From Verrucomicrobiales bacterium (GTDB taxonomy: Bacteria > Verrucomicrobiota > Verrucomicrobiia > Verrucomicrobiales > DEV007), in contig JANQVJ010000011.1 of the NCBI GenBank assembly GCA_030730365.1, positions 1 to 46,067 on the forward strand: a stretch of 46,067 nt of DNA, written 5' to 3'. Under the pieces are notes generated by a model. That model was given only the letters and a program-made list of their open reading frames with translations. It was not told the DNA's origin and did not search any database. The position numbers and the translations under genes are program-made. Of the stretch, positions 35,967-45,436 are shown piece by piece (within the stretch, counting starts at the first letter, position 1; each line of letters begins with the position of its first letter).

Positions 35967-36339
35967 AAGATGGCGCGTCTTGTATGTCGAAAAATGTTGA
36001 GTTTTAGCCTCGCTGGATGGGGGTAAAGTGGTGAAACCGGCCATCGTCAGTAAAAACCGATCATTCAAGCGATCGAGCCGTTTGGCAGGGAAGGAAAGTT
36101 CTCCGGGAATATGACAAGCTCTCCGAGGACTCGCACTCCCAAAAGAAGTCTAACGGGCAGGTATCCGGTTAGACCCTCTGTGAGGGTGCCCGTCCCTATA
36201 GGGAGTGTATCCGATTCGTTCGACACCACAGTGGTCATGCGCCGACGATCCCTCTAGAGAAATGGTCGCCGTGCGAAAAATGAGGGCACCGAGAAGCCGC
36301 GCATCGAGCCGGAACGACGCGATCCGGTTGGGGAAAACG
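35967..36339. other. Gene-free stretch between the knot-protein gene and tRNA-Ala
   Basis: No convincing reading frame is present. The middle holds a stacked palindromic set: ACGGGC (36153-36158) pairs with GCCCGT (36188-36193), enclosing ACCCTC-TGT-GAGGGT (36173-36187). The 10-bp palindrome CCCTATAGGG (36194-36203) follows at once, then CTCTAGAG (36252-36259). GTATCCGGTT and GTATCCGATT form a short direct repeat around it. It may encode a small structured RNA or a regulatory region. A 5-bp hairpin at 36309-36327 lies just downstream of the tRNA on its strand but lacks a T-run. Confidence 0.6.
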
Positions 36340-36412
36340 TGGAGCATAGCGGATTTGAACCGCTGACCCCCTGCATGCCATGCAGGTGCTCTACCAACTG
36401 AGCTAATGCCCC
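36340..36412 (-). tRNA. tRNA-Ala (anticodon GGC)
   Basis: The minus strand folds as a cloverleaf: acceptor GGGGCAT pairs with ATGCTCC, the D-arm is GCTCAGTTGGTAGAGC, the anticodon stem is CCTGC/GCAGG with loop ATGGCAT giving anticodon GGC (codon GCC), and the T-arm is AGCGGTTCAAATCCGCT. The discriminator is A and CCA is not encoded, so the cca product must add it. Confidence 0.97.
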
Positions 36413-39113: not shown

Positions 39114-40433
39114 TCACGAGCTCAGTTCCCGGATGACGCGACCGTCGCTGATGGCGATGGGACGCCCGATCGGGGTCATTTGTTCGTAGTCGTAATCGAT
39201 GCCGAGTTGGTGGAAGATCGTCGCGTGGATGTCCTCCACGCGGACTTTCCCGGTAGGCTCCTGACTTTCCCCGGTTGGGTCGGTCTCTCCGATCGCAAGC
39301 CCGCCGCGAAAGCCGCCGCCGCCGAGGAGCACGCTGAACCCGTGCGGCCAATGGTCGCGTCCCTCGGCGAGGTTCAGCTTCGGAGTGCGCCCGAACTCCG
39401 TCGCGACCATCACGATGGTGTTCTCATACAAGTCGCGATCTTTCAACAGTCCGATCAGCGCGGCGAGGGCCGGATCGAGGATCCCGAGCTGTTTGGCTTG
39501 GCCTTCGTAGTTATTGATATGGGTATCCCACCCGTTCAACGTCACTTCGACGCAGCGCACCCCGACCTCGACGAGGCGGACGGCGGCGAGACAACTGCGC
39601 CCGAATGCCGTATCACCAAAGGCCTCCCGCTCCGCTTTGGGGGCGTCACTGACGTCAAAGGCGGCGAGTTGATCTGAGCTCATCATGCGTCGGGCGCGCT
39701 CGATGGAGGTGCGGTGAAGGGTCCGCGATTTCTCGAGATCGGCGAGGCGGCCTGCGGCAAAGGACTGCTCCAGCACGTCCAGTCCATCGAGGCGAAGGGA
39801 CTGTCCCTCGTCATCGGTGCGCGATCGTAGATCGGGTAAGGGCTTGACGGGGTCGTAGGCCTGAAAGGCGTCGTATTGTGCCCCGAGATAGCCTCCGCGA
39901 GCCGGATTCTGCCCCGGGAGGATGGAAATGTGCGAGGGGATGTCGATGGGCGGCATCTTCTCGTCGAGCCCCGGCATTTCGTGGCAGAGGATCGATCCTA
40001 TCGCCGGATGAATGAGCCCCGGAAAGGGCCGGTAACCCGTTTTCACGTTGTAGATTGCGCGGGTGTGGTCGCCTTCTTTGCTGGTGACCGCGCGGAGAAT
40101 GGAGAAATCCTGCGCCCGTTCCGCCGTGAGCGGCAGTCCTTCGCCGAATTTCATTCCGCGCACAGCCGTTTCGATCGCCTTCGCCCCGTAGGCAATCGCG
40201 CGGCCGGGATGCGGGTCGAAAGTCTCGAGCTGACTCGCCCCGCCCTCCATCCAGAGGATGATAACAGACTGCGGTCGTTTTCCCGATTTTTCCGAACCGC
40301 GCGCGAGCTGTTGGGCGAGAGGAGTGAGCCAGCCAAGACCGGCGACGGCCGAGCTTTTTAAGAGGGCGCGCCGGGTGAAATGATCGCTCTGACCGCAGGC
40401 TCCGTGTCTTGAGAAAGGTGAAAAAGGCGTCAT
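39114..40433 (-). CDS. DUF1501 protein (Tat-exported)
   Basis: A 439-residue protein with a Tat-type signal (FTRRALLKSSAVAGLGWL). DUF1501 features are PQSVIILWMEGGASQLETFDP, DFSILRAVTSKEGDHTRAIYNVKTGY, RPFPGLIHPAIGSIL, a central helical part, VEVTLNGWDTHINNY and VMVATEFGRTPKLN with GRDHWPHGFSVLLGGGGFRGG. DUF1501 is distantly alkaline-phosphatase/sulfatase-like and almost always paired with DUF1549/DUF1553 proteins, as here; the reaction is unknown. The ATG overlaps the stop of that partner (ATGA). Confidence 0.93.
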   Translation of the reverse strand: MTPFSPFSRHGACGQSDHFTRRALLKSSAVAGLGWLTPLAQQLARGSEKSGKRPQSVIILWMEGGASQLETFDPHPGRAIAYGAKAIETAVRGMKFGEGLPLTAERAQDFSILRAVTSKEGDHTRAIYNVKTGYRPFPGLIHPAIGSILCHEMPGLDEKMPPIDIPSHISILPGQNPARGGYLGAQYDAFQAYDPVKPLPDLRSRTDDEGQSLRLDGLDVLEQSFAAGRLADLEKSRTLHRTSIERARRMMSSDQLAAFDVSDAPKAEREAFGDTAFGRSCLAAVRLVEVGVRCVEVTLNGWDTHINNYEGQAKQLGILDPALAALIGLLKDRDLYENTIVMVATEFGRTPKLNLAEGRDHWPHGFSVLLGGGGFRGGLAIGETDPTGESQEPTGKVRVEDIHATIFHQLGIDYDYEQMTPIGRPIAISDGRVIRELSS

Positions 40434-42061
40434 CGGTTCCAGGAGAATTCTGTGGAGTTGATCAGTGACCAGTAGAGATCGGCCATGGCTCGTTCTCTCG
40501 CTTTTTTCTCCTTTCCTTCGAGGAGACGGGTGAAATGCTCCCGCTCGGGGTCGGTCGGGTAGCGTGAAAGGAGTGCGAGGAAAGCCGCATCGAGCGTTTT
40601 CGCATCGGACGGGGCATAGTGCGCCAGTCGTGTCGAGCTGTTCATGACCGGATTCGGCTTGGTCCTTTCGTTGACGAGCTTCCCGTTCATGAGGAGGAGT
40701 CGTTGCGGGATCGTCCCGGACTCCTCGGCGAACTCATCCTCGCCGCGGTCGCCGTAGCGTTTCACAAAGTCACGCGTCTCCCCGTAGCGCCGCAACTTTT
40801 GCATGATGTGGGTCGACCCGTCGAGTGCCTGCAGGGTGCTGGCCTGGATGACGCTGCCGGCGACCTGTTCGGGACGCAGCGGGGTGACGGGAAAGGCGGC
40901 CCAGGTCGATTCCTGTTCTGCGGTGACCGGTTTGTCGGGATCGACGGAGCGACTCTCGCGACGAAAGGGATCCGAGCCCGCGATGACGCGGATGAGCCGC
41001 TCCATGTCGTAGCCGCTCGCGATGAAGCCGTGCGCCAGCTCCTCGAGGCCGGTGGAGTAGGGGCCCTCAAGAGGAATGTCATCGACCGGTTCACTGAGGG
41101 GACGCCCGAAGAGGATCGCCCAGGTGCGGTTCACCGTGACCCTGGCAAAGGCGGTGTTCTCCGGATGCGTGATCCAGCGCGCGAGCTGTTCGCGGCGCGA
41201 TCCGCCAGCGGCAAAAAGTTCGGGAAGAAAGGGGACCTGCGGAGCGATTTTCGTTTCACTTTTTTCCCCGAGGTAGCGTGCCTCGTACTCCTTCGTCCGT
41301 TTCTCTCTCACGCCGGTGATCGTGGTATCGGCCTGGGCAAAGAAGGCGGCGAGTTGGTGGAAATCCTTCTGCTTCCAGCGATCACTGAACTTGTCATCGT
41401 GGCACTGCATGCAATCGAGGCTGACCCCGAGAAAGGCTCGTGCCGTCCGCGCGGCGAGCTTTGTTTCGTCAGGGCCGCCACCGCCCGCTACGACCGAGAC
41501 GGTGATGAAGTTCGCCTCGGGATGGCTCGTCCAGAGGCCCTCGGCCGAGATGAGTTGCCGCACCAGTTCGTCGTAGGGGCGGTTGATCGCGATCTGATCT
41601 CCCAGCCAGGTCACCAGCCTTCGTCGCCGATAGACAAGGAAAGGGCCCGTCTCGACCCCGACGAAAGCCCGCGCAAAACGCTCCGCAAGGTAGTCCGCAT
41701 AGCGACGGTCGGCAAAAAGGTGATCGAGCCAGGCATTTACCGGGTCAGCGCCAGCCGGCAGGGCCTCGAGTCGGCGAATCTCCTCCAGCGAGGGCGGTGC
41801 ACCGGTCAGGGAGAGGGAGAGGCGCCGTGCGAGGGTGAGCGCATCGGCCGCGGGGACAGACGATAGGGGGGGCGTCGTCTGCGCGCGGGCAAAGGCGGCG
41901 TTCACGAGGGCGATCTCACCGGCGAGATCTTCGTGTGGAGAGGTAAGAAGCGGGAGCACCGTCGGCTCGTCCAGATACCGCCACATCATCATTCCGAGGA
42001 CGACCAGGACCGTGGACAGTCCGGTGAGGCAGGGGAGAGTGCGGGTAAGAAAGCGCTTCAT
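40430..42061 (-). CDS. DUF1549/DUF1553 protein with a heme-type CxxCH motif
   Basis: A 543-residue protein anchored by one N-terminal membrane helix (LTGLSTVLVVLGMMMW). The DUF1549 part holds ALTLARRLSLSLTGAPPSLEEI, RYADYLAERFARAFVG and LGVSLDCMQCHDDKFSDRWKQKDFHQLAAFF, where CMQCH could bind heme c. The DUF1553 part holds TAFARVTVNRTWAILFGR, VDDIPLEGPYSTGLEELAHGF, GYDMERLIRVIAGSDPFR and RRYPTDPEREHF-like SRYPTDPER. It lacks the N-terminal planctomycete cytochrome domain found in many relatives, so it is shorter than usual. With DUF1501 it forms a secreted pair thought to act on polysaccharides. The open frame continues 276 codons upstream antisense to tlyA, but the helix and conserved parts fix this start. 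Confidence 0.9.
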   Translation of the reverse strand: MKRFLTRTLPCLTGLSTVLVVLGMMMWRYLDEPTVLPLLTSPHEDLAGEIALVNAAFARAQTTPPLSSVPAADALTLARRLSLSLTGAPPSLEEIRRLEALPAGADPVNAWLDHLFADRRYADYLAERFARAFVGVETGPFLVYRRRRLVTWLGDQIAINRPYDELVRQLISAEGLWTSHPEANFITVSVVAGGGGPDETKLAARTARAFLGVSLDCMQCHDDKFSDRWKQKDFHQLAAFFAQADTTITGVREKRTKEYEARYLGEKSETKIAPQVPFLPELFAAGGSRREQLARWITHPENTAFARVTVNRTWAILFGRPLSEPVDDIPLEGPYSTGLEELAHGFIASGYDMERLIRVIAGSDPFRRESRSVDPDKPVTAEQESTWAAFPVTPLRPEQVAGSVIQASTLQALDGSTHIMQKLRRYGETRDFVKRYGDRGEDEFAEESGTIPQRLLLMNGKLVNERTKPNPVMNSSTRLAHYAPSDAKTLDAAFLALLSRYPTDPEREHFTRLLEGKEKKARERAMADLYWSLINSTEFSWNR

Positions 42062-42157
42062 CGGGTCAGGTTCCGTAGTTGAAAAGCGGACAATACCACG
42101 TTCACTCAGGGAAGACGCGGTTCGGACCGCGGGGGTTACAAGTGGATACACAAAGAC

Positions 42158-42898
42158 ATGGCAAAAGAACGACTCGATCAGGTGATGTTTCGCCGCGGGC
42201 TCTGTGACTCCCGCGAGGTGGCCAAACGCCTCATTATCGCCGGGGAAGTGCGCGTCGAGGGACACGAGGGAATCCTCAAGCCCGGGCTCAGGGTCGATGA
42301 TGAGGCCGCTATCGAGGTAAAAAGTCGCCCGAAGTTCGTCAGTCGCGGCGGTTTCAAAATTGAGAAAGCCCTCGATGAATTTGCCATCGACGTCACCGGA
42401 AAGGTCGTCTTCGATGCCGGGGCTTCCACCGGCGGCTTCACCGACTGCGTCCTTCAGCGCGGTGCTGCGAAGGTCTACGCCTATGACGTCGGGACGAACC
42501 AGCTCGCGTGGAAGCTCCGCAGCGACGAGCGTGTCGCCTCGCGGGAGGGTTTCAACATCCGCTACCTCGCCGCGTCGGACCTTCCCGAGACCGTCGACCT
42601 CGTCGTCATCGACGTTTCTTTTATCTCCCTGACCCTCATCCTCGGACCTGTCTTCGAAGTGCTGAAGTCTGACGGCGACATCGTCTGTCTCATCAAGCCG
42701 CAGTTCGAGCTGAAAAAAGAACAAATCGGCAAAGGCGGCATCGTCCGCGACCCTGCGCTGCATGAAGAAGCGGTCGAAAAGATCCGCACCTTCGTCACCG
42801 GTCCGCTCGGAAAAAGCTGGCATGGCCTGACGCAGTCGCCTATCAGTGGCACCGACGGTAATATCGAATTTCTCGCATGGCTGAAACACGAAGAATAG
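42158..42898 (+). CDS. tlyA: TlyA-family rRNA 2'-O-methyltransferase
   Basis: A 246-residue protein with an S4 RNA-binding domain (ERLDQVMFRRGLCDSREVAKRLI, VRVEG) and an FtsJ-like methyltransferase: FVSRGGFKIEKALDEF, VVFDAGASTGGFTDCVLQRGA (SAM motif I), VYAYDVGTNQLAWKLR, VIDVSFISL and LIKPQFEL with GIVRDP. TlyA methylates 16S and 23S rRNA cytidines, which allows capreomycin action, and some members are called hemolysins. The 3' end overlaps nadK by 22 nt, a common pairing. Confidence 0.93.
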   Translation: MAKERLDQVMFRRGLCDSREVAKRLIIAGEVRVEGHEGILKPGLRVDDEAAIEVKSRPKFVSRGGFKIEKALDEFAIDVTGKVVFDAGASTGGFTDCVLQRGAAKVYAYDVGTNQLAWKLRSDERVASREGFNIRYLAASDLPETVDLVVIDVSFISLTLILGPVFEVLKSDGDIVCLIKPQFELKKEQIGKGGIVRDPALHEEAVEKIRTFVTGPLGKSWHGLTQSPISGTDGNIEFLAWLKHEE

Positions 42899-43758
42899 GG
42901 ATCATCGCGAACCCCGACAAGCCCGGGGCGGGAGAGCTCCTCCTCGATCTTGTCATCCAGTTGCGCAAGGGTGGACTGACTGTTCTACTCGAGGAAAGAA
43001 CCGCTGCTCTGGTCAAATTACCCGACGGCGTGCCGCTCGATCAGCTAAGTGATCGCATCGACCTCCTCGTCGTCCTCGGTGGCGACGGCACCATTCTCTG
43101 GGTCCTGCGGCAGATGGGTGATCGCATCAAACCTATCGCCGCGATCAACACCGGCACCCTCGGCTTTCTCACCTGCGCCACCGCCGGGGAGAGCGGACAA
43201 CTCGTCGAGGCACTCGTCTCGGGCTCATTCACCCTCTCCGAGCGTCTCCTCATCGCCGGTGACCTCGAGCGTGAAGGCCGTCTCGAGGCCTCTTTCGTCG
43301 CCCTCAACGAGGTAACCCTTTGCCGTGCCGTGGCCTCACGTGTCATCCACGTCGAGGCCCACATCAACGACAAGCTCGCGAACCGCTACACTGGCGACGG
43401 GCTCATCCTCTCTAGCCCGACCGGTTCGACCGCCTATTCCCTCTCGGCCGGAGGCCCCCTCGTGCAACCCGACGCGAACGTCTTTGTTATCACCCCGATC
43501 TGCCCGCATTCTCTCGCGAATCGGCCCCTTGTCGTCGATGCGACCAGCCGTATCCTTTTCGAATCGCCGAAACAGCGCGACGACCTCTCACTCCTCGTCG
43601 ACGGTCAGCTTGTCGCCGTCCTTTCCGGCAACGCCCGCATCCACCTCCGCCGCGCCGCCTTCAGTCTCACTCTCGTCTCGATGACTGATCAGGATTTCTA
43701 CGACGTCCTCCACCAGAAAATGGGCTGGACCGGGACTTCGATTAGCGGGGAAGGTTGA
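42877..43758 (+). CDS. nadK: NAD kinase NadK
   Basis: A 293-residue kinase making NADP from NAD. The diagnostic parts are GIIANPDKPGA at the N-terminus, VLGGDGTILWVLRQM, INTGTLGFLT, LNEVTLCRA, YTGDGLILSSPTGSTAYSLSAGGPLVQP and ITPICPHSLANRPLVV. The catalytic Asp of GGDGT and the ATP-binding NE are intact. The start overlaps tlyA by 22 nt, so translation is coupled. Downstream it converges with the nos gene, with a small hairpin (43837-43850) in the 100-nt gap. Confidence 0.96.
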   Translation: MAETRRIGIIANPDKPGAGELLLDLVIQLRKGGLTVLLEERTAALVKLPDGVPLDQLSDRIDLLVVLGGDGTILWVLRQMGDRIKPIAAINTGTLGFLTCATAGESGQLVEALVSGSFTLSERLLIAGDLEREGRLEASFVALNEVTLCRAVASRVIHVEAHINDKLANRYTGDGLILSSPTGSTAYSLSAGGPLVQPDANVFVITPICPHSLANRPLVVDATSRILFESPKQRDDLSLLVDGQLVAVLSGNARIHLRRAAFSLTLVSMTDQDFYDVLHQKMGWTGTSISGEG

Positions 43759-43860: not shown

Positions 43861-44904
43861 TCATCCATGGAAAGGACATCTCGCAGGTGAACCGACCCCG
43901 CCATCCTCCCATGCGTTGCTCTGGGCGACAAATGCGGGTCCCTCTTTGGGCGATTCATAGTAATGGTGAAACACTTCCATGGTCGATCCGGAAAGCGGCG
44001 GCACGAGCCAGGACCAGTCGCCGGCAACGGATCGTCCTGCAGCTTCCTCTTTCCTGAAGAACTGCATGAACTGCTCGGAAGCGGTGTGGTGGTCTACCAT
44101 GGTGACTCCCGCTTCCCGGTAGGAATGGAGAACGGCGGTGTTTACCTCGATGAGAGCCCTGTCTTTCCAAAGTTTGCTGCGGTCCGTGCAATTTAGGCCC
44201 ATGCCATCTGCGATCATCGGGAGGATGTTGTAACGGCCTTCATCGCAGAGATTCCTGCAAGCGACTTCGGTTCCGAGATAGAATCCGCTGAAAGGGGCCG
44301 CCGGGAAGTAATGGCTCCCTCCCACAAGTGCCATGTCGGAAATAACGGGTAGTGCATGCCATCGCAGGCCCAGGTCTGCAAACCACGGAAAGTCAGGATG
44401 GGTGAGTGGCACCTCGAGCACTGCTTCATCGGGCAACTCATACCACCGGGCGGAATATCCGGGCACATCGATGATGATGGGGAGCCGGTCGAATGCGGTG
44501 GGTCTTGTTGGGGGTGACCAACCCAACGCGACGGCGCGCTGCGTAAAATCAAGCTGGGCGGGATCTCCGAGGATGGAACCGTCGGCGGCCCGATATCCCG
44601 CGTAACGTATTAGCTGATGGTTCCAAATGCGGAAGCCGCGTTCATCGCTTGCGGACTCCCTGAAAACCGTGATGAGGGGACGGATCTTACCTCCATTGGT
44701 GGAGCGGTGAAGATGGGCCAGGCAGGCTTCGAATGCTTCACCGGGGGTGGAACAGTCTCGTGCGTCAGCGAGTTCGAGTGAGGGCCAGAAAAGCCGGCCG
44801 AGGCAGCGCGGAGCATTTCGCCAAGCCTCGCGAGCCATCTCCGTGAGAGCCGCTGCGGACGGGGAACGAGTTGAGCTATCGTAGGAGAGAGGCGTGAACT
44901 GCAT
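43861..44904 (-). CDS. nos: Nitric oxide synthase, oxygenase domain (bacterial NOS)
   Basis: A 347-residue protein that makes NO from L-arginine. The heme-thiolate motif is EAWRNAPRCLGRLFW with Cys34 as ligand and Trp28 stacking on the heme. Further conserved parts are GGKIRPLITVF, IWNHQLIRYAGY, GDPAQLDF, WHALPVISDM, AAPFSGFYLGTEVACRN with substrate-binding Glu213 and cofactor Arg217, ALIEVNTAVLHSY, VDHHTASEQFM and GDWSWLVPPLSGS with pterin-stacking Trp297/299. The usual PFNGWYM is PFSGFYL here. There is no reductase domain and no N-terminal zinc hook, as in other bacterial NOS, so electrons must come from a cellular flavodoxin or ferredoxin system. Function in bacteria includes oxidative stress and antibiotic protection. 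The gene is next to arsC but lacks a clear promoter of the local type, and its codon use looks less GC-biased than its neighbours (impression only). Confidence 0.96.
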   Translation of the reverse strand: MQFTPLSYDSSTRSPSAAALTEMAREAWRNAPRCLGRLFWPSLELADARDCSTPGEAFEACLAHLHRSTNGGKIRPLITVFRESASDERGFRIWNHQLIRYAGYRAADGSILGDPAQLDFTQRAVALGWSPPTRPTAFDRLPIIIDVPGYSARWYELPDEAVLEVPLTHPDFPWFADLGLRWHALPVISDMALVGGSHYFPAAPFSGFYLGTEVACRNLCDEGRYNILPMIADGMGLNCTDRSKLWKDRALIEVNTAVLHSYREAGVTMVDHHTASEQFMQFFRKEEAAGRSVAGDWSWLVPPLSGSTMEVFHHYYESPKEGPAFVAQSNAWEDGGVGSPARCPFHG

Positions 44905-44995: not shown

Positions 44996-45436
44996 TCAGA
45001 CGCGCTTTGCCTCATCAAGTCGTCCGGCGGCATAGGCGTCGAAGACGCGTTTGATCTCGTCCCGGACGCGGCGAAAAACGGCCATTTGTTCTTCCTCCGT
45101 GCCGGTGGCGTGGGCGGGGTCGTCGAAGCCCCAGTGGTGACGATTGATCTGACCGGGGAATAGGGGACAGACCTGATCGGCGTTGCCGCAAACGGTGATG
45201 ACCGTCTCGACCTCCTCTTCGAGGAATTCGTCGAGGTGCTTGGACTGGTGATCGCTGATATCTAGCCCGATTTCCTCCATCGCGCGGATTGCAAGGGGGT
45301 GCACGTAGCCTGACGGGTTGGAGCCGGCACTGGCGACGGTGAAGCGTTCATTAAGGGCGGTGCGGAGGAGCCCTTCAGCGAGGTGGGAACGGCATGAGTT
45401 GCCGGTGCAGAGAATGAGAATGAGCGGGGTTGCCAT
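44996..45436 (-). CDS. arsC: Arsenate reductase ArsC, thioredoxin-coupled (LMW-phosphatase fold)
   Basis: A 146-residue enzyme reducing arsenate to arsenite. The P-loop is CTGNSCRS with Cys10, Cys15 and Arg16; the relay pair is [10 protein letters not shown] with Cys83 and Cys90, corresponding to Cys82/Cys89 of the B. subtilis enzyme. The phrases [12 protein letters not shown] and [13 protein letters not shown] are also family-specific. It starts 21 nt after the acr3 gene, forming an acr3-arsC operon. No arsR repressor is visible in this part. Confidence 0.95.

Follow-up and report, generated by a model that had tools for sequence, protein, structure and literature searches.

The stretch of DNA analysed here, called the window throughout, is one entire contig (C11, 46067 bp) of a Verrucomicrobiales genome assembly of 3.86 Mb in 81 contigs, which is 93.5% complete with a contamination estimate of 0.81%. 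About 1.2 kb from one end of this contig lies an intact 347-aa reading frame for a nitric oxide synthase (NOS) oxygenase with a single in-frame start codon available, and it is the only NO_synthase match in the source genome (Table 1). For the PSCyt2/PSD1 frame further along the contig, the true start probably lies downstream of the listed one, which makes the frame run into the TlyA-like gene on the opposite strand. No reductase or pterin gene was recognised by Pfam among the scanned neighbours in the window. The source genome has two flavodoxin-domain frames and one PTPS-family gene, the latter perhaps a queuosine gene; nothing ties any of them to NOS. The GC3 of the NOS gene is 0.63 compared to 0.71-0.82 for nine other reading frames of the contig, and its codon composition therefore suggests that it may be a fairly recent arrival.

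Table 1. Features located in the window, with strand and supporting evidence.
Feature	Position	Strand	Evidence and remarks
tRNA-Ala (GGC)	36339-36412		only tRNA found in the window
PSCyt2/PSD1 (DUF1549/DUF1553) protein	40430-42889	opposite to TlyA-like gene	profile match
TlyA-like S4/FtsJ methyltransferase	42158..42898	(+)	profile match
NAD kinase	42877..43758	(+)	profile match; convergent with NOS
NOS oxygenase gene	43861..44904	(-)	347 aa, stand-alone, short N-terminus; ORF, Pfam, alignment, model
C-terminal tag Arg-Cys-Pro-Phe-His-Gly, residues 342-347	43864..43881	(-)	pattern match 43867-43878; tail predicted disordered
Cys34 codon, proximal heme ligand by homology (RCLGR)	44803..44805	(-)	sequence; invariant in both alignments
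Arsenate reductase-like (LMW phosphatase family)	44996..45436	(-)	147.5 bits, below curated cut-off of 174.3
ACR3-type arsenite transporter, 3' part, running off the contig end	45458..46067	(-)	partial, 234 bits, below cut-off of 282.8

The protein matches the Pfam family PF02898 (NO_synthase) at 8.2e-132 and 440 bits, against a curated cut-off of 22.7, with residues 20-333 spanning profile positions 51-362 of 362. This is its sole Pfam domain, in agreement with the preliminary description of the locus as a stand-alone NOS oxygenase in a Verrucomicrobiota genome; among the NCBIfam profiles, no family matched at E 0.001. All the heme, arginine and pterin residues named in that description (Cys34, Glu213, Arg217, Trp297 and Trp299) were found and are invariant in alignments of 16 and of 55 NOS, and by homology they would serve the heme, substrate and pterin side. 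The segments PFSGFYL, EAWRNAPRC, LGDPAQ and GRYN that it quoted are likewise present, the last as EGRYN. Structure prediction, also proposed there, returned the NOS fold: an AlphaFold2 model from 55 sequences had a mean pLDDT of 90.1 and a pTM of 0.88, and Foldseek matched it to NOS heme domains, including eNOS, at a TM-score of 0.87 (by query length). The top PDB sequence match is G. stearothermophilus NOS (2flq, 361 bits), followed by eNOS (335 bits) and B. subtilis NOS (333 bits). Like the G. stearothermophilus and B. subtilis enzymes, to which it is 47-52% identical, the window NOS is a stand-alone oxygenase, and it has in common with them the fold, the catalytic residues and the bacterial His and Ile markers. 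The Sorangium cellulosum NOS belongs to the same oxygenase family but carries an N-terminal 2Fe2S-FAD-NAD reductase that the window enzyme lacks (PMC3701330). Judged by sequence and predicted model, the protein is a NOS in identity, residues and fold, and it is probably active as an enzyme.

Bacterial NOS had been characterised at the outset as known mainly from Firmicutes, Deinococcus and some actinobacteria and cyanobacteria. This overstates its rarity, since NOS in verrucomicrobial MAGs was already in print in 2017 (PMC5673642), and the occurrence of NOS in Verrucomicrobiota is therefore not new. These MAG enzymes come from the same phylum, and that report likewise saw no toxin genes adjoining NOS; the part of it consulted reports presence, to which the present analysis adds the tree, the N-terminal loss and the tail. 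What is new is the short N-terminus together with a Cys-Pro tail; the enzyme itself, and its presence in the phylum, were known before. NOS was found in 18/387 genomes of a phylum sample, 49/384 of a class sample (which took E values up to 1e-50) and 71/288 of an order sample, each count including the source genome; within the genus, nine other genomes of the order sample have NOS and at least 20 do not. A set of 80 NOS loci comprised the best 80 of 589 confirmed, with near relatives over-represented.

We placed the window NOS in an IQ-TREE phylogeny of 93 rows, three of them PDB sequences, obtained by thinning 129 at 82% identity, merging identical cores and leaving out L032, L036 and L037 as short. 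It falls within a clade of 18 Verrucomicrobiales rows with support of 96/95, nearest to Akkermansiaceae and Luteolibacter rows, with identities of up to 66%. The 37 nearest of 128 other NOS are all from Verrucomicrobiota (57-66%), and the first from another phylum is at 56%. Other verrucomicrobial NOS fall in further lineages of the same tree. A single monophyletic verrucomicrobial NOS was also considered and set aside, as the best tree splits the rows; forced unity of 51 rows is, however, not rejected (p 0.274). The genus of the window holds two NOS types, one window-type (L050, which was removed when the tree was thinned and is assigned by identity, and L054, at the base of the clade) and another represented by L103, L208, L209 and L215. 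Moreover, the genus mate L050 is closest to L159 and L041 rather than to the window NOS. These two types in one genus, the nearest kin of L050 and the low GC3 of the window gene speak for an exchange of NOS genes within the order. In one further genome (G357, loci L014/L032) the NOS frame has one internal TAG, perhaps marking a pseudogene or a sequence error.

Some segments had at first seemed as close to animal as to bacterial NOS. The raw likeness holds: the window NOS is 48% identical to human eNOS, much as it is to B. subtilis NOS (47%) and not far below its identity to the G. stearothermophilus enzyme (52%). A special nearness to animals is not supported. A review names three residues separating bacterial from animal NOS (PMC9500659). 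In the window NOS, His96 (animal Ser) and Ile188 (animal Val) are bacterial, and Asn218 is bacterial-type but non-diagnostic, as eNOS also has Asn there in our alignment. The animal features we looked for were absent, namely the reductase domain and the Zn-binding Cys-X4-Cys, the first Cys being the heme Cys34. Lateral acquisition of the gene from an animal or another eukaryote would account for the eNOS identity and for the PFSG, RNAPRC and RNLCD segments common to the two proteins. Forcing eNOS into the clade costs 34 log-likelihood units, although the AU test does not formally reject that placement (p 0.0999). Human eNOS, the only animal row in the tree, nevertheless falls outside the clade, and the 37 closest relatives, all verrucomicrobial, the clade support and the two bacterial markers make a eukaryotic origin highly improbable. 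The tree position, which the preliminary description had wished to see checked, is thus with Verrucomicrobiales and not with the animal row. We give equally little credence to the gene being a contaminant contig end or an assembly artefact, which its place near the contig end and its GC3 might suggest. The contamination estimate is low, the closest NOS come from the same order within a supported clade, nine other genomes of the genus carry NOS, and a TlyA-like homologue lies convergent beside NOS in another genome as well (G327, L024/L039). The low estimate, the NOS of the same genus and this common neighbour effectively rule out contamination, one of the outcomes under which the original reading was to be abandoned.

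The N-terminus is indeed shorter than that of B. subtilis NOS, as had been noted, although by 31-32 rather than 28 residues: query residue 20 pairs with B. subtilis chain residues 51-52, leaving 19 residues ahead of the conserved core compared to about 50. The window frame, read from its upstream stop, has room for 36 residues before the core. Fewer than 45 codons separate the upstream stop from the core in 20/36 window-type loci (drawn from identity and tree and including the basal L054-L056, without which the count is 19/33), compared to 1/85 other, non-identical loci with an upstream stop present in the sequence; the shortest frames have room for 11-12 residues. Because the stops themselves impose this limit, loss of most of the pre-core segment is a property of the group and not the product of a wrong start codon. 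Such a loss may affect pterin binding or dimerisation. Most of what is known about bacterial NOS comes from a few Gram-positive enzymes. A clade with short N-termini, most of its members having about 320-350 residues, offers a natural test of pterin and dimer-interface requirements.

The arsC-like gene lies upstream of NOS on the same strand with a gap of 91 bp, and the ACR3-type gene lies further upstream on that strand, an arrangement that would suit a NOS acting in an arsenic-response operon. However, among 146 NOS loci the window is the only one with arsC and ACR3 homologues nearby (the loci being of unequal lengths, some with a 1.5 kb flank only, and including duplicates). This rules out the arsenic operon as a conserved unit and makes a working arsenic operon in the window very doubtful. 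No conserved neighbour gene was found for the window's clade. In 9/21 same-clade loci NOS has a sensor kinase or response-regulator gene no more than 7 kb away, which hints that NOS of the clade may be linked to signalling; on the available sequence, no regulator gene adjoining the window NOS was recognised. Four regulator genes near clade NOS (L044:7063-9720, L047:9554-10393, L048:1191-4670 and L039:4493-5950) were scanned with Pfam and comprise a GAF/PAS histidine kinase, a LuxR-type regulator, a hybrid kinase and an NtrC-type regulator.

A second notable feature of the window NOS is its tail, SPARCPFHG, which falls in a region (residues 336-347) with pLDDT <50 in the AlphaFold2 model. Of 90 non-redundant NOS, 37 have a Cys-Pro-[FYLIVM] tag in a tail (24 at the N end, 13 at the C end, none at both), and the tag state changes at least 23 times on the NOS tree. 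When tails were shuffled in 2000 rounds, the means were 1.15 (N) and 0.27 (C) and the maxima 5 and 3, compared to the observed 24 and 13. Across the initial set of 127 loci, which still contained redundant ones, CP[FY] was found in 15 N tails and nine C tails, and the permuted patterns PC[FY], [FY]PC, C[FY]P, [FY]CP and P[FY]C in none. At the C end, 13/17 tail cysteines lie inside a tag, and 11 of these 13 sit 4-11 residues from the end; at the N end the figure is 25/72. The residue preceding the tag Cys is Arg or Lys in 15/38 tags. C ends with CP[FY] are spread over Bacteroidota (L058, L081), Cyanobacteria (L067, L090), Actinomycetota (L083, L085), Bacillota (L084) and Verrucomicrobiota (L021 and the window).

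Among 22 loci fetched once the pattern had been defined, 16 were tagged (14 N, two C, none at both ends). A single genus (g271) supplies ten of these 14 N tags. Five loci (L284, L286, L288, L301, L304) share 82% identity or more with a NOS of the initial set; without them the count is 14/17, again with ten from one genus. The tag lies in the last 12 residues of 10/76 NOS ORFs compared to 0/606 other ORFs (of at least 250 aa, from the loci examined), and in the first 25 residues of 6/606 of the latter; the N-end tag counts rely on rule-chosen start codons, of which the C-end counts are independent. Inside the core, CP[LIVM] occurs in 49/127 loci, and this variant of the pattern is therefore not unusual for NOS as such. 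Only two rows of the 18-row clade are tagged, the window NOS at its C end and L025 at its N end, and the clade therefore does not need the tag. B. subtilis and G. stearothermophilus NOS show no such tail in their aligned parts (to 362/363 and 370/375; crystal constructs may be trimmed). Selection most likely acts on the RCPFHG tail, which would be one of many Cys-Pro tags placed separately on bacterial NOS. A genome-wide CP[FY]H tag was tried and rejected: TGYCCNTWYCAY has 26 matches in the source genome and the reversed pattern 32, and there is therefore no genome-wide excess. Of the 26, the NOS match alone sits right at the terminus of a long ORF.

A similar KCPFH-like tag occurs near the N-terminus of the catalase-peroxidase KatG, a heme enzyme unrelated to NOS, in 28/28 N-termini located (30 loci), and the KatG of the source genome has KCPVMG after what appears by eye to be a signal peptide. 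Six of these 28 verrucomicrobial KatG (L181, L185, L187, L191, L193 and L194) have two consecutive Cys-Pro tags near the start, for example SCPVDH then KCPFHH. Catalases were tagged in 0/12 of the N-termini located (29 loci). Among P450s, located in 23/30 loci, 6/23 were tagged, all six from one P450-like family. These members of a P450-like family of the order (L241, L242, L245, L247, L248 and L249) have a KCPFHGE-like segment about 20 residues in, deeper in L247, and their relatives L244 and L250 have CEF where it would sit; the segment is possibly part of the fold.

What might such a tag do? Arg or Lys before the Cys, then Pro and a hydrophobic residue, fits the consensus of heme-regulatory motifs, which hand heme to the active site. 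As a Cys-Pro-hydrophobic sequence in a flexible region (pLDDT <50), RCPFHG has the sequence hallmark of a heme-regulatory (CP) motif, and the NOS tag looks like one, with its function argued by analogy. CP motifs of several other proteins also sit in low-confidence model regions, and C-terminal CP motifs of heme oxygenase-2 are described, in a reference title cited there, as redox-regulated heme-binding sites (PMC11101860). Such motifs resemble the window tag in placing a Cys-Pro in a disordered part of a protein, and those of heme oxygenase-2 also in being C-terminal on a heme enzyme; a heme role of the NOS tag would be assigned by resemblance. Contact of the tag with heme is a reasoned guess, and the lack of a tag in all 12 located catalases counts against it. 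Our literature search, confined to main texts in a largely open-access library, found nothing on this terminal tag in NOS or KatG; a Cys20 passage that it turned up concerns redox-sensing cysteines of OxyR-type regulators.

The CPFH tag may instead be a thiol for disulfides, for metal or for NO sensing (S-nitrosation), or a partner-docking peptide, and not a heme site; this is quite conceivable, if somewhat short of an even chance. Chemically, a reactive Cys would be well placed next to an NO source, the tag can sit at either end of the protein, and in two of the fusion proteins described below (L204 and L205) the tag lies about 700 residues away from the NOS domain, as a docking peptide could. 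The tagging of KatG, another redox enzyme, is in keeping with it too, but Pro and a hydrophobic residue after Arg or Lys suit a heme-regulatory motif, by the consensus above, better than a bare thiol. Tentatively, and with still less confidence, we propose that NOS and KatG have in common a portable terminal heme tag, approximately [R/K/Q/G]-C-P-[F/V]-[H/S/A], repeatedly gained and lost in NOS and there found at one end only. It would contact heme outside the active site and control how enzymes that produce or break down reactive oxygen and nitrogen species are loaded with heme or shut off by redox state; the window NOS would be a recent C-terminal case in a stripped-down clade. If functional, a tag found across NOS of Verrucomicrobiota, Bacteroidota, Cyanobacteria, Actinomycetota and Bacillota and in KatG would point to a common heme supply or sensing in bacterial oxidative enzymes. 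The recurring tag is the part deserving experiment.

Overall, we put at roughly 0.85 the probability that the window protein works as a bacterial NOS and belongs to a clade of Verrucomicrobiales enzymes, with a tail that is most likely selected as one of many Cys-Pro tag placements. By family precedent the enzyme would work as a homodimer in the cytosol, with heme bound via Cys34, L-arginine via Glu213 and a reduced pterin, most likely tetrahydrofolate, on the Trp297/Trp299 side. With O2 and electrons from what is presumably a general cellular reductase, it would convert arginine to citrulline and NO, and the flexible RCPFHG tail would be carried as one of the separate tag placements seen on bacterial NOS.

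NOS also occurs in fused form elsewhere in Verrucomicrobiota, where Sorangium-type reductase NOS is found in L203-L205, L306 and L307. Fusions of about 1063-1075 aa (L203:2466-5660, L204:1665-4853, L205:1317-4505, L307:1170-4394 and the cut L036:3-2618) have one or two cNMP-binding domains, a BFD-like 2Fe2S domain, a FAD domain and NOS at the C end, that is, the inverted layout of the Sorangium type plus a cyclic-nucleotide-binding part; none of the papers returned by a text search on such NOS fusions mentions cNMP. A 1121-aa fusion (L306:1246-4608) has 2Fe2S, FAD, NAD and NOS domains and ends in GCPFH; no Pfam family matches its first 430 residues at E 0.001. Several fusions are themselves tagged, at the N-terminus (MATCPFSS and MPSCPFSS in L204 and L205) or at the C-terminus (LGCPFH and AKCPFY in L306 and L307).
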